Shown: positions 22,140 through 34,167 of the stretch, piece after piece | Layout: the number at the start of each line of letters is the position of its first letter | Numbering within the stretch: position 1 is the first letter of the stretch | DNA from: Nitrospirota bacterium | GTDB taxonomy: Bacteria > Nitrospirota > Nitrospiria > Nitrospirales > UBA8639 | Length of the DNA stretch: 34,408 bases | Assembly: GCA_027623995.1 (NCBI GenBank) | Contig: JAQBUF010000037.1 | Location: 1 to 34,408, forward strand | Reading direction: 5' to 3' | The notes under the pieces: model-generated | Database searches by the model: none | What the model was told of the DNA's origin: nothing | Seen by the model: the letters and a program-made list of their open reading frames with translations, nothing else | Made by a program: the position numbers and the translations under genes

Positions 22140-22802
22140 TTATGAGGAAAAAGTGCTCCTTGCCCGTGTCCGTGAAGGCTGAGGCCGATGGGAAGGGTGT
22201 TGGGCCTGTGCCGAAAGGTCTCGATAGAGTTGCCTTACGACTCTGCGAAGTTGTTCTCGAGATTGGGTCCCATCGATCAGGTCGTGTGCGAACTTTTTCT
22301 TTTCGCGCAAGGATAGTTGCCCTCGAATCCGAGCCAGGGCGTCCTTCCGCGAAATTCCGTCTCGTTCACAGGCCCTCACAATTTGCGTCCGTTGATCGGT
22401 CGTCACGAGGATCACGCGATCCATGCGTTCATGTGCCTTGGCTTCAATGAGCAAGGCCGCATCATAAATAATCACCGCATCTGGGTGTTGCATGCCAATA
22501 TGTTTGGTGATTTTAGCCTGTTCACGAGCGACCCGAGGATGCACGATCTGGTTGAGAATCTTGAGCTGCTTGGGGTTCCGAAAGACCAGTGCAGCCAACG
22601 CTTCTCGATTAAGCGTGTGGTCATCATGTAAAATACCCTTGCCGAATGTAGCGACAATGTCTTTCCATGCGGCTCGATCAGGCGCCACCACAGTTCTCGC
22701 CACCTGGTCCGCATCGATAATTTCTGCGCCACATTGTTGAAATAGCTTGGCCACCGTGGTTTTTCCCGATGCCAAGCCTCCTGTTAAGCCGACGACGATC
22801 AT
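22140..22802 (-). CDS. coaE: Dephospho-CoA kinase
   Basis: Phosphorylates the 3'-hydroxyl of dephospho-CoA, the last step of coenzyme A synthesis. The 220-residue P-loop kinase begins MIVVGLTGGLASGKTTVAK (Walker A at residues 8-15). It continues with IIDADQVAR, VHPRV, the lid-region VTTDQRTQIVRACERDGIS, and a C-terminal NxxS-like variant region. ATG 22802 is the conserved start; an upstream in-frame start at 22823 adds unrelated residues. The first 15 codons and the 5' flank are duplicated at 32806-33014. A 99-base gap separates it from trxB downstream. Confidence 0.93.
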   Translation of the reverse strand: MIVVGLTGGLASGKTTVAKLFQQCGAEIIDADQVARTVVAPDRAAWKDIVATFGKGILHDDHTLNREALAALVFRNPKQLKILNQIVHPRVAREQAKITKHIGMQHPDAVIIYDAALLIEAKAHERMDRVILVTTDQRTQIVRACERDGISRKDALARIRGQLSLREKKKFAHDLIDGTQSREQLRRVVRQLYRDLSAQAQHPSHRPQPSRTRARSTFSS

Positions 22803-22847
22803 AACGGAACATAGTAAAGGCATTTAGGCTGGACGTCGAGTGTGGGA
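22758..22847. repeat. Direct repeat, left copy: coaE 5' end and upstream flank
   Basis: About 90 bp covering the coaE start codon, codons 1-15 (through the Walker A lysine) and 45 bases upstream. It recurs in the same orientation at 32806-33014, where the copy is interrupted by a 115-bp insert. It is near-identical in the coding part (one mismatch), with a differing 7-8-base patch just before the start codon. Confidence 0.85.
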
Positions 22848-22920
22848 TGTCGAGGGCAAATTAGGACGAGTTGCGCTTAAACATTCCATTCGGCAACGTG
22901 GTAGGTACGTCCCAACCGTA

Positions 22921-22950
22921 TTGATTGCTGTCCCTCCTCATGTTCATAAT
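22921..22950 (+). promoter_or_regulatory. Candidate promoter upstream of the response regulator
   Basis: TTGATT (22921-22926) and CATAAT (22945-22950) are 18 bases apart. The predicted start is near 22957, about 120 bases before the regulator ATG and immediately before a terminator-like hairpin. Confidence 0.4.
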
Positions 22951-22970
22951 GATCTTACGATTAATAGGGA

Positions 22971-23004
22971 ACTCCAGCTCAGGACCATTGGAGTCTTTTT
23001 TTTT
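22971..23004 (+). terminator. Intrinsic terminator / possible attenuator before the response regulator
   Basis: ACTCCA (22971-22976) pairs with TGGAGT (22989-22994) around a 12-base loop, followed by C and nine T. No plus-strand gene lies directly upstream. It would therefore terminate either a very short transcript from the promoter near 22950 or read-through, which suggests leader attenuation. Confidence 0.55.
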
Positions 23005-23075
23005 GGCCGACCTGCTTAAGCGATGGGCATTGGGTTGCCTCAGTTTTCAACCAAAAGGCCGTTTAAGGAAAAATC

Positions 23076-24504
23076 ATGACAGCAAAAATTCTGATCGTGG
23101 ATGATGAAATCGATATCCGCTCTGGAGTGAGCCATCATTTGAAGGCGCTGGGTTATACCACTGTGATGGCTGAATCCGGAGAAGAAGCCCTCAGTATGTT
23201 TAAGAAACACCAGCCGGATGTCGTACTCCTCGATTTGGAGCTTCCCTATAAATCTGGGCTGGAAGTCCTCGGCGAAATGGGCAATATCCAAAAAGACAAC
23301 GAAAATTTTCATCAAGCAAATCCCCACCACATGAGTCCCTGCCAGCTCTCGGTTATCGTGTTGACTGCCCATGGAAGTCTTGAAAATGCGGTGGAGGCCA
23401 TGAAGTTGGGGGCCTATGACTTTTTGACCAAACCCTTTGAAATGGATCATCTGATCCTGGTCATTGAGAAGGCCCTGGAGCGAGAATAGTTGGTGCGAAA
23501 GGTGAAACTTCTCACCGAGGAAGTGGAATCCCCCTACGCAAGGATCATTGGCCATAGTGAAAAAATTCGATCAGTTACGGAAATGGCTCAGAAGGCTGCG
23601 GCATCAGACGCAACGGTATTGGTGTTAGGAGAAACGGGGACGGGCAAGGAACTCCTGGCGCGATGCATGCATAGATGGAGCTCAAGACATGAAGAACCCT
23701 TTGCCGTCATAAATTGTGCAGCCCTTCCTGAAACATTGCTCGAGAGTGAATTATTTGGACATGAAAAAGGAGCATTCACAGGAGCCGATCGTTTTCATCG
23801 AGGAAGAATAGAGGCGGCCCGTGGGGGAACGGTGTTTTTAGATGAAATCGGTGAAATGCCGCTCAAACTCCAAAGTCGATTTCTCCGGGTCCTTCAGGAC
23901 CATGAGATTCAGCGAGTTGGGGGGGGCGGGCAATGTAGCAGTGGATGTACGATTTATGGCCGCGACGAATCGAAATTTGAAAAAAGCCGTCAAAGAGGGT
24001 ACGTTTCGAGAAGATTTGTTTTATCGCCTTAATGTCGTATCCATCACCCTACCATCGTTGAAAGATAGACCTGAAGACCTCATCGAACTCGCCGAATTTT
24101 TTCTGACTCGACTTGTGCGTGACAAAAAACGACCAAAGGTATCACTCACCTCGCAGGCTGTTGAGGCCATCCTGCAATACTCGTGGCCTGGTAATGTGCG
24201 TGAATTAGAAAATGTATTGGCGCGAGCGGTCATTCTCAACACAGGACTAGAAATTACCTCCGAACAACTTCCGTTAGAGATAGCCATTCCCGACACGGGC
24301 CCTTTGGATAGGGCGGATCACAAGAAGATGCCTTACTATGAGGCGATTGAAAATTATAGCCGCGCACTTATTCTGAATGCGTTGCATCGGAACGACGGCA
24401 ACAAAACCAAAGCCGCGGAGGAGCTAGGTATCCAGCGAACATACCTCAACACAATCATGAAACGAAAAAACATTCAATGGAATGAATCTGATTCGGAAGA
24501 ATAA
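23076..24504 (+). pseudogene. Sigma-54-dependent response regulator (NtrC family), broken by a stop and a frameshift
   Basis: An NtrC-type regulator read in three pieces. The receiver (codons 1-137) has Asp10, phospho-acceptor Asp53, Thr97 and Lys119. It carries an unusual insertion of about 18 residues (71-88) before the LSVIVLTAHG strand. An in-frame TAG at 23487-23489 follows ALERE, where CAG (Gln) is expected. The AAA+ domain then continues with GETGTGKE and GAFTGA until a run of eight G (23919-23926) shifts the frame by +1. Removing one G restores [19 protein letters not shown]. The rest of the AAA+ domain, WPGNVRELENV and a FIS-type helix-turn-helix (KTKAAEELGIQRTYLNTIMKR) are intact to TAA 24504. 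It converges on the kinase gene, its likely partner. Confidence 0.85.
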
Positions 24505-24538
24505 GTTCGATGTTATCGGGTGAGGGGAGCAAACCCAA

Positions 24539-26833
24539 TCAAACCATCGCTGGGTTGGGTTGAGGTTCAACGGGCAAGGTGAACGAAAACCGACTCCCTT
24601 GGTGGGGAGTACTCTCAGCCCAAAGGTGACCTTTGTGCAGTTCAACTAAATGTCGGCTCAAAGCCAAACCAAGGCCTGCCCCGCGATTGTTCGAGGTGTT
24701 GTTTCCTGTGCGGTAAAACGGCAAAAAGATATTACCCAATTCTTCTGGCGAAATGCCGCATCCCGTATCGGCAACACTGACCACAAGCTTCCTATCCGCC
24801 CGACAGATTATCGAGATGATGATTTCTCCAGTTTCTGGCGTAAATTTCACGGCATTGTGAATGAGATTGGTCAAAATCTGAAACAATTTATCCCGGTCTC
24901 CCACCACACAAGGTACCTCAATGGGTGACGAACATCGGAGTGCAAGGGTTTTTTCACGAGCGAGGGAGGAAAGATCGTCGATGGCTTCCTGCACAACCTC
25001 TACGAGGGAGACGGAACTCAATGTTAATTTCATGCGACCGGTTTCAATTTGCGTGAGATCAAGGAGTTCAGAAATCATGCGGCGGAGTCGATCCACATTG
25101 ATGCGTACACGGCCTAACTGCTGCGTTTGTTCCGGCGTCATGGGCCCGTAGATACCTCGGAATAAATTCTCCACAAACACCTTGATAGACGTCAGCGGGG
25201 TCCGCAACTCGTGAGAGGCAATAGAAACAAAGGTGGATTTCAAACGGTCCAAGTCTTTCAGCCTGTCATTAGCCGTTTGTAGTTCTTCCGTGCGCTCTTG
25301 AACGCGGCGTTCAAGGGTACGTGTGAGCCCCTCAAGCTCCAAGTACGCATGGGCACGATCGATCGCAATGCCTAGTTTGGTCGCGATGGGATGAAGAAGG
25401 GACAAGTCCTCTTGTTCACAGCGAAGAGCACCCTTCGCGACGGCAAGGAATCACAGGATATGTTGGTCACTTTCAAGGGGAACAATGATAAAGGAAGTAA
25501 TGCCGTGGCTTTCCAGAGATTCGATCAGGGGAATGTCGGAAGGGGTGGAGAGCATCGAAAGGTCATGAGCGACTACAGAATGATGATGGATCAGAACTCG
25601 AGCCAACACTCCTCCATGTTCGTCGACTGGGAATTCTCGTCCCGCTATTTTTTCCATGAGGAGGCTGGGGAGACCGGAACCGTGAATGGAAGAAAGCATA
25701 TGCCGTTGATCATCATAGAGGCCAAGAGCGGCACAGTGGAATTCCGAGTGGTCGATCAATTGCTGTAAAGCCGTGGAGAGTAGAGCATCCAGCGAAGAAG
25801 AAGAGAGAGAAGAAATGGAAGTCCCAACGGTATGAATCGTCGTCAGTCGAGAAATTTGTTGTTCGACGGTGTGCTTTTCCTGTCGGAGGGCCTGAATCAT
25901 ATGATTAAAAGAAGTCGTGAGTTGCCCAATTTCGTCTTCGGCATTGGATGAAGGGAGGAAAGAAAGATTCCCCTTCGGAATCATGATGGCTTGTTGAGTT
26001 AAAGCCTTGAGAGGAACGGTCATTCGCCTGGCCACAAGCGCGGTCACAACCAAACCCACAACCACAATGAAACACGTAATCAGGATGCCCTGCCAGACGA
26101 GGTTATGAACCTCCTGCTGCAGGGACGCATCCGAAAGTCCGATTTGAATCAACCCCTGAACTGGCGCCCCCACCTCGCCTTGAAGGGTTTGAGAACCCGA
26201 GTCGGGCCGGAGCTCAAAAGACAGCAAAGGATCGAATGCCGGTTGAGGGACTGAACGAAGAATAGGGACAGAAAAATCAAACAGGGTTTCAACCAGCTCT
26301 GTGGAAAACGTGGCAAGCACCATCCCGGCTTTTCCGTGGTTGGCTGAAACCCGTTCTTCGCCCGTACTGGACTGGGAAAACGGGGTGATGGTGACTCCAG
26401 GAGAAGGACGCGCCAGGATCTTTTGTCGCAAGCCGGCATCAGCATACAGCGGAGTGGTGGCAGAACGGCTGAGACTATCCTGGCTGGAGAGTGTGCCTTT
26501 ACTCTGCGCCGCCAGAATCTGTCCGGAAGAATCGGAAAAGACCACATACACAACTTCCTGAACCGGGAAGGCGCCATCAATAAGTTGATTGAGTCCGAAT
26601 TCGTCTTTGAGAAAGAGATGATACCTTCCATTATGCGCTAAATTTTGTGCCAGCAGTTGACCGGTGTTCATCAGCGATTTCGTTTGATACCGAATTTGCA
26701 TCTCGATAAAGTACAGTCCAAGGAAAATGGATCCCAAAAGAATGACCAGACTCATCAGCGTGATCAGCTTCGTGCTGAGGGTAAACACTCGCCCAAGAGA
26801 AAATGAAGAGAGAGAACGACGCATAGGAATCAC
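24539..26833 (-). pseudogene. Membrane sensor histidine kinase interrupted by an in-frame TGA
   Basis: The layout is N-terminal transmembrane helix (LITLMSLVILLGSIFLGLYF), an extracytoplasmic sensor region of about 200 residues, a second helix (GILITCFIVVVGLVVTALVA), HAMP, GAF-like domain, coiled coil, HisKA (SIASHELRTP, His at full-frame residue 541) and HATPase (N, G1 DTGCGI and G2 GAGLGLALS boxes). A TGA at 25451-25453 (codon 461) interrupts the GAF domain. The frame then continues without shift as FLAVAKGALRCEQED and onward, so a GGA-to-TGA change is the simplest explanation. A separate kinase-only fragment could restart at TTG 25405. GTG 26833 or ATG 26824 begins the gene, three bases after the binding-protein gene, so it is in the same operon. 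Confidence 0.85.
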
Positions 26834-26836
26834 TTG

Positions 26837-27826
26837 TTAAGGAATAAAGAAAGGTTCATTGGTGTCATGTTTGGCAAAGGCCCCAGGTCCGCCAAAAAGC
26901 TCGGCAGCCAATTGCATGGATTGTGTGGATGGGGTCACACCGAGGAATTCCGCCGCGTTGAGATTTAAGGCTAATTGTGGTTGAGCAGGAGGTTGCGGGG
27001 AAGGGAGAGACCTCCCTTTCGTCAAATCCTGGCGAAGAATATCCCGAGCCAGCGAAGCAGCCTGACGACCGATGAGTTGATAATCCAGAGAAAGGGTTGC
27101 GAGTGCGCCGTGACGCATCAAACCAGAAGAAAAACCAAACACCGGAACGTTGAAATCAAGTGCTGTCCGCATCAAAAACCGGAGCGAATCCACATTGACC
27201 ACCGTAGGATCACGGAGGAGCCAGAGGGCATCCACCTGAGGCAGTAGGGTCCGAAGAGCCCCGGGGAGATCCGCAGGACGAGTTATGGGTGTGGCCACGA
27301 GAGTTAGGCCCAAGTCCTTGGCCGATTGTTGCGCGTGAAAAACAAACGGTGAGCTATCCAGACTATACACCAGTCCCACCCTGTTCAATTTCGGAAGGAC
27401 CGTGCGCATCGAAGCCAATTGGTCTTTGCTGGGAACGGTCATCAGAATCCCAGTCATGTTGGCGCTGGGCAAGGCATGGATCTCAGGGTTCAAGACCAAA
27501 CAAAACACGACCGGCTGGTCCACGATTTCAATTTTCGCCAGGTGTGCGGCTTTTCCGCCAACGACAAAGACCAGATCCGGATTCGAAGCCCGAATCCGCC
27601 GACCCAGTTCACGATCCGCTGACATCGGCTGACCCAAAACATATTCATGGACGGCAAAAGATGGGGACAGCCCGGAGCGAAAACCTTTCACAGCTTTGTG
27701 ATAGACAGGAAGTTCGCCGGATAAGAGAATGGCAATGTCCTGGGCGAAAGTGGGAGTTGCCAATAAGAGGGCGATCAAACAAAGGAGAAACTGAAGAGGA
27801 AATATACGACTCCTTACCCATGTCAT
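26837..27826 (-). CDS. ABC-type substrate-binding protein (PF04392-like), no transporter nearby
   Basis: A periplasmic binding protein of 329 residues starting MTWVRSRIFPLQFLLCLIALLLATPTFAQ, with the signal peptide cleaved after FAQ or TFA. Features: DIAILLSGELPVYHKAVKGF, a PDLVFVVGGKAAHLAKI strand-loop, TGILMTVPSKDQLA, VDALWLLRDPTVVN and FGFSSGLMRHGALATLSLDYQLIGRQAASLA. These match the ABC_sub_bind family of two-lobed binding proteins. No permease or ATPase gene is in the window. The kinase gene begins three bases downstream and the TonB receptor ends 128 bases upstream. The protein may therefore present a ligand to the kinase rather than to a transporter. ATG 27826 is chosen over upstream TTG or ATG codons because it begins the signal peptide. 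It is the only intact member of the cluster. Confidence 0.8.
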   Translation of the reverse strand: MTWVRSRIFPLQFLLCLIALLLATPTFAQDIAILLSGELPVYHKAVKGFRSGLSPSFAVHEYVLGQPMSADRELGRRIRASNPDLVFVVGGKAAHLAKIEIVDQPVVFCLVLNPEIHALPSANMTGILMTVPSKDQLASMRTVLPKLNRVGLVYSLDSSPFVFHAQQSAKDLGLTLVATPITRPADLPGALRTLLPQVDALWLLRDPTVVNVDSLRFLMRTALDFNVPVFGFSSGLMRHGALATLSLDYQLIGRQAASLARDILRQDLTKGRSLPSPQPPAQPQLALNLNAAEFLGVTPSTQSMQLAAELFGGPGAFAKHDTNEPFFIP

Positions 27827-27954
27827 TAAAGGGATACGGACGCACCCTGCCATCAAGGTCAAAGCCGGTTGCTGAAATATCAATGCCTGCATGTGGGAGG
27901 GCTGTAACATCAATGGGAGTCTCCCCAAATAGGATATTTCATATTGTCCACCAA

Positions 27955-29970
27955 TCAATTCCAAAATAGCAAAGGATTAAAGGTGCCTGCCGGCAACTGC
28001 ACCGTCAGCCAGCCCATCACGCGGCTGCCGATGACATCCCCTCTGGGATGCTCCTGATGTCGGTCGTTCAACGCATTAAAGATAGAGAGAGCCAATTCCG
28101 CTTGTCTGTTCCAAAAATAATAACCGACACGAAGATTCACAAGGGTATATTCACCGATCTTGGGATTGGGCGAAGCCACACCAAAGGGTGCCAAGGTCAG
28201 AAAAGCGCCCGTAAGCGGATACGTCACCGAACCATAATAGTGAATGGCCAACTCCATCGTGAACGTGTGGTTCCATTCTCCCCTCAATCCCCCGTTGATC
28301 TTAGCGCTTGGGCCAACTCGTCGGTTCTCTCCGGTGATGGTTTGGTGAATGTCCTGATACGCGTAATTGGCGAAGCCAGTAAGCCAAGAGGTTGCCAAAA
28401 ATTCAACGCCAAGTTCTCCGCCATAAATGTCCGCTTCTTTTCCATTTATGAAGGAGATGGAGGATCCGAAATCTGTTGGGGTGATGAGGTCGGATATGTG
28501 ATCATAAAAGATGTCACTGCGAATTCGCAGGCGATGGCGAAGAAACCAACCCTGGTAGCCCGCAGGAAAGGAAATGATTTGCTCTGGACTAAGGTTCGTC
28601 GATCCAATGACTGTCACGGGAGGGGGAGATGGACTTGGAGGGGGAAGGAGGGTCAGCACTCGCCCACGAAAGTAGGTTTCAATCAAGGAAGGTGGCCGAT
28701 AGGCGACGGAAATGCCTGCACTGAATGTCTGATTTTTGATGGGCTTAAACAGGATTGTCAATCGTGGACTAATGGTAGGCTTAATGAACGTGTCAAGTTC
28801 AAACCGAAAACCGGACACGACAGTAACTAAATCTGTCGCTACCCATTCATCTTGAAGATAAAACCCGAACCGGTTCTCTTTTCAAAATTGACCAGTGAGA
28901 TCTCCAGAGACCGTATTGAAGCGATAATTTCCCCCTAACGTCAGTCGATGGTCTTCAAAATTGAGAGTGTACTGCCCCAGGGCATTATAGGTATTGAAAG
29001 CAGCTGCCCGTACCGAACTTCCATTAGGCCCAATCTGTCTAAAAAGATTCAGCACCGCTGGGAACATTTCTTCGCTCGTCGAAGAATGCCTGTTCCACCA
29101 GAAGTGCAATAAAATATTCGAATTCTCATAGAGGAGATTGGCATATCCTTGGGAGGGCTCAGTGGCTAAGGTCGCGGCACCGACCGGCTGGCCATCAAAC
29201 CGGTTGGAATCAACAATCCCTCCCGATGCCGAGAGGGTGGATGTGGGGCCGAGAGTGTAATCAGTATGAAGGTTGAACTTATACGCCCGAAAGGCTAGGC
29301 CATCGCGGTTGTTCCATTGTTGGTTTTGGTCCCATCCTGTAGACACACGGTAGCGAAGTAGTTTATGGGCTCCGGCATGGACAGCCGCAGTTCGAATAGT
29401 GCCGAATTCTCCTGCGCCAATTTGGAACGTGGTGCCCTTCAGCTTCTCCGGTGATGTCGTAATGATGTTGACTACGCCGTCAAAGGCATTAAATCCATAG
29501 ACAGCAGAAGCAGGGCCCTTCAATACTTCTATTCGTGAAATTTCAGGTAAAGTGACGGGCAGCAGCGGCCAAAGAACGGTGCCTTGGCCGTCAAGATAAA
29601 TAGAACGTCCATCGATTAACACGAGAATACGGTTGGCAATTAGCTGATTGTTGCCACGGACACTGACATTGAAATCAGCGCCCGTAGTTTGCATGACTTC
29701 CATGCCCGGCACGCGGCGCAGGAGCGTGGGGATGTCGGTGGCGCCGGATTGTCGAATATCTTCCGCGGTAATCACATAAATATTCGATGGCGATTCCGAA
29801 ATCGGCTGTTCATGCCGCACTGCCGTCACGACTTTTTCCTCTTGCAAATACTGCAACTCCTCATCGAGCGACTGCGTCATGGCCAAAGGGCCAGACACAT
29901 TGGCACTGTCCGCGCGTGTGGCGGCCGAAGCTGGATGAGTTCCCAAGGAAAGGAACAGTAAAATACACAA
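27955..29970 (-). pseudogene. TonB-dependent outer-membrane receptor with an in-frame TGA
   Basis: The plug domain is clear: PSNIYVITAEDIRQSGATD, VPGMEVMQ, SVRGNNQLIANRILVLIDGRSIY, and ISRIEVLKGPASAVYGFNAFDGVVNIIT. A beta-barrel runs to the C-terminus NPLLFWN. The barrel is cut by TGA at 28882-28884 after GDLTGQF; the same frame resumes at once as KENRFGFYLQDEW. The 5' end is also uncertain. A signal-peptide-like segment (CILLFLSLGTHPASA) is present, but no in-frame ATG or GTG precedes it; TTG 29970 is the nearest start. Either the native start was lost or a further small lesion lies near 30000-30050. It is the first gene of the receptor, binding protein and kinase operon. Confidence 0.85.
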
Positions 29971-30078
29971 TCCTGTCGAGCGAAATATGCTGAGTGAACA
30001 ACCAAAAGATAGCTTCTCCTGGGTTTTTGACGCATAGGCTCTATACCATGAATAGACTAGCAGACAAATGGAGACATC

Positions 30079-30107
30079 TTTAGGTCTATGCCTTGGTGTG
30101 ATACTAT
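30079..30107 (+). promoter_or_regulatory. Weak candidate promoter of vapBC
   Basis: TTTAGG (30079-30084) and TACTAT (30102-30107) are 17 bases apart, about 58 bases before the antitoxin start. The -35 match is poor. Confidence 0.3.
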
Positions 30108-30164
30108 ACAGTCTGATTGGAACTGAATTGAGAAAACTCCATAAGCGAAGAATGAGGTAGGGCC

Positions 30165-30374
30165 ATGATTCAGATAAAGCGACAAATTGTAACTGACGAA
30201 AGCATGCAACCGGTTGCCGTATTGATTGATTATGCTGACTGGGAAAAGATTGAACGGCTACTTGCGGAAAAAACCGACGTAACGGCAAATGGGTCGCTCG
30301 AAAAACACCGCGGCATTCTAGATCTAACGGAAGACCCCTTGGAGTACCAACAACGGGTTCGGCGTGAATGGTGA
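30165..30374 (+). CDS. vapB: VapB-type antitoxin
   Basis: A 69-residue protein immediately before and overlapping a PIN-domain toxin. The N-terminal part (IKRQIVTDESMQPVAVLIDYADWEKIERLL) resembles Phd/YefM-type antitoxin dimerisation regions. The acidic, flexible C-terminus would wrap the toxin. The ATG at 30165 has AGGTAGG seven bases upstream. Its TGA overlaps the vapC ATG by seven bases (ATGGTGA), the usual coupling in such modules. It is transcribed divergently from the broken TonB receptor. The precise antitoxin family is inferred from the partner. Confidence 0.82.
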   Translation: MIQIKRQIVTDESMQPVAVLIDYADWEKIERLLAEKTDVTANGSLEKHRGILDLTEDPLEYQQRVRREW

Positions 30375-30751
30375 GCAAGGGCGCAGAAGATTCTCGGTTT
30401 CTCTTTGACACGAATGCCATCCTGTATTTTCTGGGCGGGGTGCTTGCCGATCCTCTCCCCAAAGGGCGTTTTTGGATTTCTGTCATCACGGAAATTGAAT
30501 TGCTTTCCTATCCCAGTTTGACCCCTGAAGAAGCGGCCAAAATTAAAGATCTTTTCTCGGATATTGCTATCATTGGCCTGACCTCCACGATAAAAGAGGA
30601 AGCCATTACCCTGAGAAGGAATAAAAATCTCAAAGTGCCTGATGCCATCATTGCGGCTTCAGCGAAAATTCTCCAAGCGACATTATTGACCAATGATCGA
30701 TCCATGAAAAATATTCCTGACATTTCCATACAAGCCTTACGACTCCGCTAA
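30368..30751 (+). CDS. vapC: VapC-type PIN-domain ribonuclease toxin
   Basis: A 127-residue PIN-domain protein. The Mg-binding acidic set is present: Asp14 in FLFDTNAIL, Glu42 in ISVITEIELLSYP, Asp in VPDAIIAASA and Asp in LLTNDRSM. Such toxins cleave tRNA or rRNA and are held inactive by the cognate antitoxin encoded just upstream. Start ATG 30368 lies inside the end of vapB. The length and motifs are complete, so the module appears functional although it is surrounded by decaying genes. It may help retain the island. Confidence 0.9.
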   Translation: MVSKGAEDSRFLFDTNAILYFLGGVLADPLPKGRFWISVITEIELLSYPSLTPEEAAKIKDLFSDIAIIGLTSTIKEEAITLRRNKNLKVPDAIIAASAKILQATLLTNDRSMKNIPDISIQALRLR

Positions 30752-30854
30752 GGTGAACAGCGCGGGTCTTCTCATTTTCCGCAGGGCGTCCCGTCTATTT
30801 TTAACGCAATTCCCACTTTTACCCTTTCGACCCCATAGGGTCGTCAAGCCATTC

Positions 30855-30944
30855 GTGTAGGTGCAGCATCTCATGCTGCTTCTTCCAGACGGCAACGGGC
30901 TCATGATGCGTGGAAAGAGGCACGATGAGATCGTGCAGCTACAC
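30855..30944. repeat. REP-like inverted pair of hairpins (BIME-like)
   Basis: Two related palindromes face each other. The first is GCAGCAT-CTC-ATGCTGC at 30863-30879, preceded by GTGTAGGT. The second is GCACGAT-GAG-ATCGTGC at 30920-30936, followed by AGCTACAC. The outer 25-base arms are imperfect inverse copies of each other across about 40 bases. This is the layout of a bacterial interspersed mosaic element. Confidence 0.65.
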
Positions 30945-31010
30945 AAGAAGGGAAGCCCACATGCGGACTCGCCTCCACCAATATTGTGAGCGATTCCGAA
31001 AGTCCCCATC

Positions 31011-31338
31011 GTTCATTCATTCCAAAATGCCAACGGACTTAACGTCCCAGCCGGCAACTGCACGGTCAGCCAGCCCATCACCCGGCTCCCGATGACATCG
31101 CCTAGGGGAGATGCTCGCGATGGCGATCGTTCAACGCGTTAAAGACCGAAATCGCCACCTCGGCTTGCTTGTGCCAAAATTGATAGGCGCAACGCAGGTT
31201 GATGAGCGTGTAGCTGGGAACGCGAGGATTGGGGGCGATTACCCCAAACGGGGCAAACGCGGTAAACGCCGACGAAATGGTATGCGTGGTGGGGTCCACA
31301 TAATGGACAAGCACTTCGGCACTCAAAAGGATGGTGAT
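31011..31338 (-). pseudogene. 3' stump of a second TonB-dependent receptor
   Basis: Minus-strand reading gives a barrel C-terminus closely matching the receptor at 27955-28250: TLINLRCAYQFWHKQAEVAISVFNALNDRHREH, then, after a frameshift at a TAG near 31107, GDVIGSRVMGWLTVQLPAGTLSPLAFWN. Likeness to the first receptor stops near 31338, where the ATG of the plus-strand collagen-like gene (31341) begins. No plug or signal peptide remains. It is clearly a decayed paralogue; roughly 110 codons survive. Confidence 0.8.
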
Positions 31339-31340
31339 TT

Positions 31341-32270
31341 ATGGAAAATGAAAACAAGATTGATAGGGCACAGAGATTTATTCATGCACGATCACTGATC
31401 CTTGGTGGCGTTTTGGTGATACTGAGCTTGGGAGCGTGGCCCTTCTCTGGAGTGGCTATGGGACCACCCAAACAAAAGGTGTCGGCACTCCAAATCAAAG
31501 AAGTGGTGGTGGATTTGGAGGTTGGAACCCTCACCATTCTGGGTCAGGACCTGGACTTGGGCAACACCTTAGACGTCACTCTTGGGGAATTGGGATCCCT
31601 GCTTATCGTGGGGATGCCAACCGACACCGAGATTGTCGCGGCGTTGCCCTCAACAATCTCCAATGGTGATTTTTTACTTACGGTTTCGACGGGTAATGCC
31701 CGGAACCAGAATGATGAATATGATCTGACGATTGGCGCAGTCGGGCCCGAAGGTCCCGTCGGGACTGCGGGAGACCCAGGGCCACCTGGAGCGCAAGGAC
31801 CGCCGGGGGCGATTGGTCCGCAAGGACTGCCGGGAGTGGTACTGGGTATTGTTGAGAACTTTACCGTCTCCAATTCCACCTCGTGTACCGTGACCTGTAC
31901 ACGGCCTGAAACAACACATACGGGTACAAATTGCCCACTCTTTGGCCCCTGCACACAGTTCGGCATATTGGCAGAAACACCGGCGTGCACCGCAACATGT
32001 AACGAGGTTCCTGCGGTGGCGGACTGCGGTACCGCACCCAACCGTTTTCTCGTCTCCTGCGTTACGGGGAGTCACAGTGGTGGGATGGCTAAATCTTGCG
32101 ACGGAGCAGCACCTCTAGCAACGGTGACCGTACCCTCGACGATCTGCACAAATTTGTCGGGTTTGTCTGGCTGCTCAACCCCAAGTACCTGCAGCTGCAC
32201 TACGCCGTCGGAAACAGGCACGGTGACCGACACACAAACGGCCACAGCTCTTTGTGCAGAGGCGAGTTGA
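31341..32270 (+). CDS. Secreted collagen-like, cysteine-rich protein
   Basis: A 309-residue exported protein. An N-terminal hydrophobic segment (SLILGGVLVILSLGAWPFSGVAMG) is followed by a beta-rich domain (about 45-130; IKEVVVDLEVGTLTILGQDLDLG, LLIVGMPTDTEIVAALP) resembling adhesin or tail-fibre modules. Then come about 11 Gly-x-y triplets (GPEGPVGTAGDPGPPGAQG onward) forming a short collagen-like stalk. The C-terminal domain of about 130 residues has 14 cysteines and many Thr/Ser. The most likely role is a surface or appendage protein. ATG 31341 follows AAAGGATGGTG. The ribosome site itself lies in the stump of a TonB receptor on the opposite strand. Confidence 0.8.
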   Translation: MENENKIDRAQRFIHARSLILGGVLVILSLGAWPFSGVAMGPPKQKVSALQIKEVVVDLEVGTLTILGQDLDLGNTLDVTLGELGSLLIVGMPTDTEIVAALPSTISNGDFLLTVSTGNARNQNDEYDLTIGAVGPEGPVGTAGDPGPPGAQGPPGAIGPQGLPGVVLGIVENFTVSNSTSCTVTCTRPETTHTGTNCPLFGPCTQFGILAETPACTATCNEVPAVADCGTAPNRFLVSCVTGSHSGGMAKSCDGAAPLATVTVPSTICTNLSGLSGCSTPSTCSCTTPSETGTVTDTQTATALCAEAS

Positions 32271-32506
32271 AAGCAGGAGAGAGGAGTCTTGCTGGCCATG
32301 GGAAAAGGTTTCAGTGTCTACCTTGCGTATCCCTGCCAGGATATCACGCCTTACTCGGTCGGACATTTACAAAGGCAGGGTGTGCATGACATTGGGATAG
32401 GGTGCCAGTGCGGTTCATTAAGGGACTTGCCTGCTGGGGTCTGGCGTGGGAGTTCAAAGGCGCAAAAGCAAACCCCTTGATTATACAAAAGGAAGGATTG
32501 TGATCC
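32271..32506. other. Intergenic region before the acyl carrier protein
   Basis: There is no supportable gene, terminator hairpin or recognisable repeat in these 236 bases. An AAGGA ribosome site for the acyl carrier protein lies at its right end. Confidence 0.4.
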
Positions 32507-32773
32507 ATGAAGGATGAAACGGTGCTTGATCAGGAATCTATTCAACAAGGGGTGCAGGATTGGTTAATCAACTATGTGGCTAATGAATTGAAGGTTGATC
32601 CGCCGTTGATTAATCCAACTCATACCTTTGACCAGCTGGGTTTGGATTCGGTCACCACGGTGGCCTTAACCGGGGAACTCGAAGGTGTGCTGGGGCGATC
32701 GCTTTCGCCCAGTTTGCCGTATGAGTACCCCAGCATTGAGGCGCTGGCGAATTTCTTAGCTCTTTCGGATTAG
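32507..32773 (+). CDS. Free-standing acyl carrier protein (polyketide-synthase type)
   Basis: An 88-residue four-helix carrier protein. The phosphopantetheine attachment motif is FDQLGLDSVTT with Ser48. The following LTGELEGVLGRSLSPSLPYEYPSIEALANFL is typical of carrier proteins associated with polyketide/nonribosomal enzymes or AMP-ligases, rather than housekeeping fatty-acid AcpP. No partner synthase, ligase or transferase is in the window. ATG 32507 follows AAGGA with good spacing. It is the last gene before the right-hand coaE repeat, so it may be cargo of the island separated from its partners. Confidence 0.88.
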   Translation: MKDETVLDQESIQQGVQDWLINYVANELKVDPPLINPTHTFDQLGLDSVTTVALTGELEGVLGRSLSPSLPYEYPSIEALANFLALSD

Positions 32774-32805
32774 GCATAATCTTTGGTGTAGAATTACACC
32801 CATCG

Positions 32806-33014
32806 GTTTTTCCCGATGCCAAGCCTCCTGTTAAGCCGACCACGATCATAGTCCCTTCATAGTGAAACTCCCCGCCCAAAGGGCGGGGCTTCTTAAAAAC
32901 CCAAAAAAAATTATTGCTTTCGTTGGCGCTGGGCTGCCATTCATCCCCATGCAAAGCAGGGGGCTTTCCTGGCAGGTCTAGTAAAGGCATTTAGTCTGAA
33001 CGTCGAGTGTGGGA
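32806..33014. repeat. Direct repeat, right copy: coaE 5' fragment, split by a small element
   Basis: 32806-32850 repeats the coaE start through codon 15 with one mismatch; on the minus strand it still reads MIVVGLTGGLASGKT and then diverges. 32979-33014 repeats the coaE upstream flank. The two halves are separated by the insert at 32864-32978. Same orientation as 22758-22847, about 10 kb away. It cannot encode a kinase. Confidence 0.85.
32864..32978. mobile_element. 115-bp hairpin-ended element (IS200/IS605-like non-autonomous candidate)
   Basis: The insert interrupts the coaE repeat and is bordered by TAGT on both sides (32860-32863 and 32979-32982). The left end has a strong hairpin, CCCCGCCC-AAA-GGGCGGGG, followed by CTTCTTAAAAA. 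The right end has a second one, CCCC-ATGCAAAGCA-GGGG, near 32945-32962. Subterminal hairpins of this sort are typical of IS200/IS605 relatives and their palindrome-associated derivatives. No transposase is encoded. The left hairpin could also end transcription of the acyl carrier gene. Confidence 0.55.
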
Positions 33015-33123
33015 GGGAACCGTGGCGGGGGCGAGAAACTTGACCGTCTCCTGAGACTTCCTGTATGTGCGTGGTAAGGGTGGATAATGCCTCAATACGA
33101 AATTTCACAGAGGTGGGAAACAA

Positions 33124-34167
33124 GTGGTGAATAAGAAAATTGCATCAATTAACGTCTTCATGATCGTGTTTTCTCTGTGGTTTGGGACCAGTATGGGTTT
33201 GGCCCAAGAGGGATTTATTCCTCATGGCACGGAGACCGCTGGTGGCGCGACCTGGGTCGTGGCCTTAGACGGGACCGGGCAATTTATCTCCATCCAAGAA
33301 GCTATTGATCAAGCACATAGCGGGGATACGATTTTCATCAAGGCCGGGCGGTATGTCGAAGATGTCACTGTCCATAGTAAGGAAGGCCTCAAAGTTATTG
33401 GCGAGGGCATGAAAAAAGTGTTCATTGCCGGATTAGAGCGAGTAGGAACCCTCCACATTGGGAAATGGCCATATGGCGCAACGAATGTTGAAATTAGCGG
33501 GATGACCATCCAACAACATGGCGGCCTTGGGGTGGGGATTTTTAACGGAGCGGGCGTGACACTTCGTGATATTGATGTCAATGGATTGATCTTTAGCCAG
33601 CAGGTCCAACGAGTTCGAATCGAGAATTGTATTGTGGGCGGAAGTGAAACCACAGGGATGGCCTTTGCCGATTCAGATGCCATTCTTATTGGCAATATTA
33701 TTCACGACAATGATCACGGCGTGTCCGTGGGTGGAACCTCAAAAGTGGAACTAAAAAATAACGTCATTACACGAAGCTTGTTTGAAGCGGTCTTAGTGGC
33801 CGATAATGGGCAGGCGAGCGTTGTGCAAAATACTTTGGTCAACAATGGGGGTGGAATTAAGTTTCAGGACGAAGGTTCAGGAGAATTTCGAGGCAATATT
33901 ATCAGTGATTCAAAAGTGGGTGTCGCCTATTCAGCCAAAACCAAAGTGATGAGGGCACATAATGCTTTTCACAACAATGGGATTCATGACCAAATGAACG
34001 GAAGTGCTATCTCAATGGAAGCGACAAACAAAGCCAATCAAGATCACTTCGTTTCTCCGAAGTTCGTTGCCCCCGACCGCGGAGACTTCAGACTCAAAAC
34101 AGATTCACCATTGTTAAATGTCGGTGAGTTTGCCCATCTCGGAGCACTTGGCCCTGTCAGTCAATAA
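33124..34167 (+). CDS. Secreted right-handed parallel beta-helix protein
   Basis: A 347-residue protein with a signal peptide (ASINVFMIVFSLWFGTSMGLAQ). It begins with a pectin-lyase-fold entry segment (WVVALDGTGQFISIQEAIDQAHSGDTIFIKAGRYVEDVTV), then successive parallel beta-helix rungs (NVEISGMTI, GVTLRDIDVNG, RVRIENCIVGG, KVELKNNVITRS, SVVQNTLVNN, EFRGNIISDS), and the common ending GDFRLKTDSPLLNVG. The fold suggests polysaccharide binding or processing, like NosD/DUF1565-type proteins; no clear catalytic lyase residues can be assigned. Start GTG 33124 has GAGGTGGG six to seven bases upstream. It lies just outside the right coaE repeat. Confidence 0.82.
   Translation: MVNKKIASINVFMIVFSLWFGTSMGLAQEGFIPHGTETAGGATWVVALDGTGQFISIQEAIDQAHSGDTIFIKAGRYVEDVTVHSKEGLKVIGEGMKKVFIAGLERVGTLHIGKWPYGATNVEISGMTIQQHGGLGVGIFNGAGVTLRDIDVNGLIFSQQVQRVRIENCIVGGSETTGMAFADSDAILIGNIIHDNDHGVSVGGTSKVELKNNVITRSLFEAVLVADNGQASVVQNTLVNNGGGIKFQDEGSGEFRGNIISDSKVGVAYSAKTKVMRAHNAFHNNGIHDQMNGSAISMEATNKANQDHFVSPKFVAPDRGDFRLKTDSPLLNVGEFAHLGALGPVSQ

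Follow-up and report, generated by a model that had tools for sequence, protein, structure and literature searches.

The described systems closest to the locus considered here are the Lcl bacterial collagen-like adhesins (NF046116), the IPT/TIG domains found in Met, plexin and EBF1 chains, and genomic islands with flanking direct repeats. The locus lies in a window of 34,408 nucleotides (the whole stretch of DNA analysed, from contig JAQBUF010000037.1 of the Nitrospirales assembly GCA_027623995.1), and none of the publications listed by a literature search is, judging by its listing, about its collagen-like gene or the island that carries it. Like genomic islands of this kind, the locus comprises an inserted block that has repeats at both flanks and is absent from relatives. 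Unlike typical islands, it yielded no recombinase, integrase or transposase in the 12 larger block ORFs scanned with Pfam or NCBIfam, a tRNA search of the window returned nothing, and the flanking repeat lies over the 5′ part of the protein-coding gene coaE. An Rfam scan of the window at gathering scores also returned nothing. The sole NCBIfam match of the collagen-like protein is to Lcl; it is confined to the GXY stretch (residues 130–166) and scores 20.9 bits where the cut-off is 500. The protein differs from Lcl in having 11 triplets only, an immunoglobulin-like (Ig-like) N-domain and a cysteine-rich tail.

We consider it likely that the locus was assembled through an insertion of about 10 kb, the loss of most of a second TonB receptor at 31326/31327, and the joining there of a collagen-like gene that came with its own Shine–Dalgarno sequence. 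The outcome would be a small Nitrospirales island in which a receptor cluster, a toxin–antitoxin pair and a surface-protein gene were pieced together, and whose junctions are sharply readable.

The block between coaE and the beta-helix gene

The block, its flanks and its contents other than the receptor stump and the collagen-like gene are as follows.

22140–22823, minus strand: coaE (dephospho-CoA kinase), native left neighbour (TIGR00152, 155.2 bits, cut-off 65.55)
22758–22847, no strand: left direct-repeat copy, coaE 5′ end and upstream sequence (blocks 22758–22803 and 22812–22847)
22848–32804, no strand: inserted block, about 10 kb (long coaE–beta-helix gap compared with relatives)
23040–27964, mixed strands: gene cluster (conserved order in G023 and G018, and family hits)
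23040, minus strand: unknown gene of the cluster (weak match in G023 and G018, 27–30%)
23842–24504, plus strand: C-terminal part of a sigma-54 activator, cluster member
24539, minus strand: histidine kinase, cluster member
25451, minus strand: HAMP protein, cluster member
26837, minus strand: ABC substrate-binding protein, cluster member
27955–30000 (5′ limit approximate), minus strand: TonB-dependent receptor, neighbour of the stump (own-genome search, translation, Pfam)
30165–30374, plus strand: RelB-like antitoxin (PF18506, 32.3 bits vs 27)
30368–30751, plus strand: PIN-domain toxin (PF01850, 49.5 bits vs 23.6)
30857–30879 and 30920–30942, no strand: inverted REP-like pair (genome-wide pattern count, fold)
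32507–32773, plus strand: free-standing acyl carrier protein (PF00550, 55.3 bits vs 20.8)
32805–33014, no strand: right direct-repeat copy, interrupted by about 120 nt of other sequence (blocks 32805–32850 and 32979–33014)
33124–34167, plus strand: beta-helix protein gene, native right neighbour (PF13229)

Comparison of gene order across the family shows that the receptor stump and the collagen-like gene belong to some 10 kb of DNA inserted between coaE and the beta-helix gene. Measured between matched ends, these two genes stand 10,300 nt apart here, compared with 166–647 nt in all 43 comparable relatives. The count draws on the 44 of 48 family genomes (the window's own included) in which both genes lie on one contig, and takes the best beta-helix match per genome, weak second matches being excluded; it omits G009, G019 and G037, where coaE is unmatched (the beta-helix match also being weak in the latter two), and G045, where the genes lie on different contigs. 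The beta-helix gene itself has a strong match in 46 of the 48 genomes, own counted, with 80% identity in G027, and coaE adjoins it in G027 and G026, both of the same genus, and in G013, of the same family.

The 5′ end of coaE is duplicated as a direct repeat flanking the block, with a 46-nt block 98% identical and a 36-nt block 94% identical between the copies. We infer that the block entered between coaE and the beta-helix gene and left the coaE 5′ end in two copies; the recombination route could have been a single crossover or the action of a recombinase since lost, either of which would leave such flanking repeats, and the whole looks like an ordinary island rearrangement. The genome is a draft of 110 contigs and the present one ends 241 nt beyond the beta-helix gene, a setting in which the block might be suspected of being an assembly chimera. 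Such a chimera is nevertheless highly improbable, given that the flanking genes are the very pair that stands close together in 43 relatives, that the two repeat copies are non-identical, and that the genome is rated 99.71% complete with 0.68% contamination. The interruption of the right repeat copy (32851–32978) contains a GC-rich hairpin and has TAGT at either end, as judged by eye. It is possibly a small mobile element and may resemble IS200/IS605-type ends; its fold was not clearly better than those of shuffled sequences (z −1.93 and −1.53).

The cargo of the block thus delimited consists of the TonB/ABC/sensor cluster, the RelB-like/PIN pair, the REP pair, the stump, the collagen-like gene and the acyl carrier protein. 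The order and strands of the cluster at 23040–27964 and of the receptor that follows it are kept in G023 and, up to the contig limit, in G018. The sigma-54 activator frame within it is short, encoding only the end of the interaction domain, the lid and a Fis-type HTH, and its match recurs in both genomes. The neighbouring TonB receptor is broken by one in-frame TGA at 28882–28884 and is otherwise full-length. The 23-base REP-like pattern is matched exactly at 58 places in the genome, compared with 0 for the backward control, and the fold of the region 30845–30960 (z −3.84) was equalled by 0 of 200 shuffles; palindromes of this family occur genome-wide in two main head variants, commonly as inverted pairs about 60 nt apart. 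The acyl carrier protein found 0 matches in the 47 other family genomes and a match in 9 of the 394 other phylum genomes drawn (47% for the best-scoring row). CAAAAGGA precedes its start as well as that of the collagen-like gene.

The receptor stump and its break point

The junction region holds the following features.

31018–31326, minus strand: stump, C-terminal remnant of a second TonB receptor with a frameshift near 31110 (blastn, tblastn, profile)
31327–31331, plus strand: Shine–Dalgarno core AAGGA of the collagen-like gene (sequence and receptor homology limit)
31341–32270, plus strand: collagen-like gene, ATG at 31341, frame intact
31734–31835, plus strand: GXY triplets, inside the collagen-like gene

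A reading made earlier from the sequence alone had recognised a minus-strand TonB receptor remnant resembling its paralogue, and this identification holds. The stump matches the 3′ end of the neighbouring receptor at 133 of 167 positions (blastn, E 4e-37), its frame of 74 codons encodes a protein 54% identical to that neighbour and 64% identical to a receptor of G044 (702-residue open frame), and it scores 101 bits against the receptor profile. Beyond the frameshift near 31110 the tail runs on in another frame to about 31018. The block contains two tandem TonB-receptor paralogues. A tblastn search with a 629-residue relative matched 31108–31326 over residues 539–611 only, leaving the stump without a plug domain and without a complete barrel. 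The missing 5′ part, about 85% of the receptor, was not found in its own genome, where the search gave the neighbour, the stump and one weak hit (29%) on another contig. Rightward of the break all receptor matches were short, with E values of 0.075 or worse; those near 32768–32818 (13–18 residues, E 0.075–0.95) were taken as chance. Gene conversion between stump and neighbour was considered and set aside: the tail is 87% identical and the preceding stretch 67%, and this difference of 20 points is not evidence of conversion because the differences in 120 other receptor pairs spread beyond it (mean 7.7, sd 11.3, maximum 35).

The break was located with a profile built from 17 receptor copies (the neighbour and one fragment among them), run against the stump frame extended to 31500. 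Its aligned part starts at the codon 31326–31324, and the tblastn match ends at the same base. The likeness had been thought to stop near 31338; a break there is, but it lies twelve bases further left, 14 nt upstream of the collagen-like ATG, whose assignment to 31341 on the plus strand was borne out by translation. The residue preceding the aligned limit is a glycine in 16 of the 17 receptor copies (by eye) and not in the stump. Because the looser envelope of the profile reaches 31344, six codons beyond the aligned limit, a few strongly diverged receptor codons past 31326 are possible. On these alignments the junction between stump and collagen-like gene is real.

Receptor DNA was then sought at 33 loci of collagen-like homologues, representing 27 places (six same-place pairs are included, L048–L051 match the query over 31–44 residues only, and upstream DNA is scant at some, with 5 nt in L046 and 261 nt in L050). 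With the stump and the C-terminal 290 residues of the neighbouring receptor as queries, there were 0 matches at E 0.001. Since no homologue locus matched, the junction is private to this genome among the loci searched, which agrees with a rearrangement here. The comparison of homologues' upstream DNA that had been suggested with the sequence-only reading thus found receptor-derived sequence at none of the 33 loci and gives no indication of an ancient arrangement. For the family loci, two places in G027 were also compared with the window's genes. Upstream sequences at the starts of 12 loci differ from that of the gene here, those of L031 and L041 being mutually alike; DNA matches to the upstream stretch in L039 (23 nt) and L042 (27 nt) are over 2 kb away from the collagen-like match and were dismissed as chance.

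The junction is observed directly, and a deletion or joining at 31326/31327 would have taken most of the second receptor and set the collagen-like gene beside the receptor's 3′ remnant. Of the earlier proposal that a foreign or rearranged gene had joined here, the rearrangement stands, with the 5′ part of the receptor, some 85% of it, not found in the genome, no receptor match at the 33 homologue loci and the insertion absent from 43 of 43 comparable relatives.

Ribosome site and transcription of the collagen-like gene

The collagen-like ATG is preceded by CACTCAAAAGGATGGTGATTT, in which the AAGGA core forms the first bases outside the aligned receptor homology. From the position of this core beyond the homology limit, the translation signal seems to have arrived together with the collagen side, the gene apparently retaining a ribosome-binding site of its own. 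The incoming side would thus have opened with its own Shine–Dalgarno sequence, and translation initiation would thereby have been kept. A different account was implied by the sequence-only reading, in which a foreign collagen-like gene was inserted and drew a new initiation region from antisense receptor DNA, the ribosome site with it. That account would accommodate an ATG only 14 nt from the break, a profile envelope extending to 31344, and 33 homologue loci without a receptor match. However, the AAGGA at 31327–31331 begins just past the aligned homology, contrary to what was claimed for the ribosome site, and the scan found no promoter-like site in 31011–31340; we judge the account quite improbable.

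Under the reading we favour, in which the gene came with its own Shine–Dalgarno sequence, transcription could arrive by read-through from the plus-strand toxin–antitoxin operon or start from promoters in the stump DNA, and a transcription start inside the stump is possible. One refinement, compatible with that reading, is that an antisense promoter in the stump drives the gene while its translation signals are its own. The roughly 14 nt of non-receptor DNA before the ATG would be insufficient for a promoter and a leader, which speaks for such a capture, but the scan gave no sigma-70-type match in 31011–31340 (0 sites there, and 2 in 30000–33200 against 2.6 expected), and read-through from the toxin–antitoxin genes or a silent gene is equally possible; we entertain the refinement only tentatively. 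If the stump does supply the promoter, the locus would offer a natural test case for the expression of promoterless incoming genes. It is rather unlikely that the collagen-like gene arrived promoterless, with a ribosome site only, and is now driven by a promoter lying antisense in the receptor pseudogene; were an antisense pseudogene promoter of this kind real, the decay of one surface-protein gene would have supplied the expression of another.

Relatives, origin and predicted form of the collagen-like protein

Of the 47 other family genomes, 5 contain collagen-like relatives; the N-domain here is 39–48% identical to those of five family copies, and the N-terminal part is matched in 6 of 235 order genomes, all of the same family and own included. 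GTDB contigs gave 21 loci of relatives from several phyla. The best relatives are 55–57% identical in protein sequence, no close relative being found, and a search of the 394 other phylum genomes drawn gave two weak matches (27%) to the cysteine-rich tail. In the family proteins at L002–L011 the N-domain runs into GXY repeats, as it does here, whereas their C-terminal tails differ and no receptor match adjoins them.

Whether the gene itself is foreign, as had been suggested, is neither supported nor contradicted by its composition or its phylogeny. The overall G+C of 0.554 exceeds that of the other listed genes (0.446–0.525, the stump at 0.560 apart), and may be due to glycine and proline codons; third-position G+C is 0.545, inside the range of the other listed genes (0.39–0.58), while that of the stump is 0.68 (75 codons), above that range. 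Composition is therefore mixed and gives no clear answer on foreignness. In an N-domain tree of 22 sequences, 4 of the 19 branches are starred and 12 are open. It gives the window's copy no supported neighbour and splits the 11 family copies instead of uniting them, with 5 changes, at least 2 of them forced by starred branches. With the window's copy unplaced and the family copies split, the tree shows neither transfer nor vertical descent. An origin from a mobile element was also considered and rejected, as neither plasmids nor phages gave a match and viral contigs yielded no confirmed relative.

Judged by eye, the N-terminus of the protein is hydrophobic; it is followed by the Ig-like N-domain, 11 GXY triplets and the cysteine-rich tail. 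The triplets are uninterrupted and end on a final G (residues 132–165), and the Pfam collagen family (PF01391) matches the same residues at 25 bits, below its gathering score of 27.2. Modelling the full-length protein from its single sequence was of no use (mean pLDDT 35.7); an alignment of 16 N-domains gave an all-beta model of the N-domain with a pLDDT of 87.3. In a Foldseek search with this model the first hit was a type II secretion chain, and the best 25 hits include Met, plexin and EBF1 chains (TM-score by query 0.49–0.63), although no hit reached E 0.001 and Pfam gave no match to the N-domain. Met and EBF1 contain IPT domains, and the predicted N-domain is probably an immunoglobulin-like fold of the IPT/TIG type. 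Most likely, the collagen-like protein is exported and sits exposed on the surface; its parts would be an Ig-like domain, a short stretch of collagen triple helix and a tail rich in cysteine.
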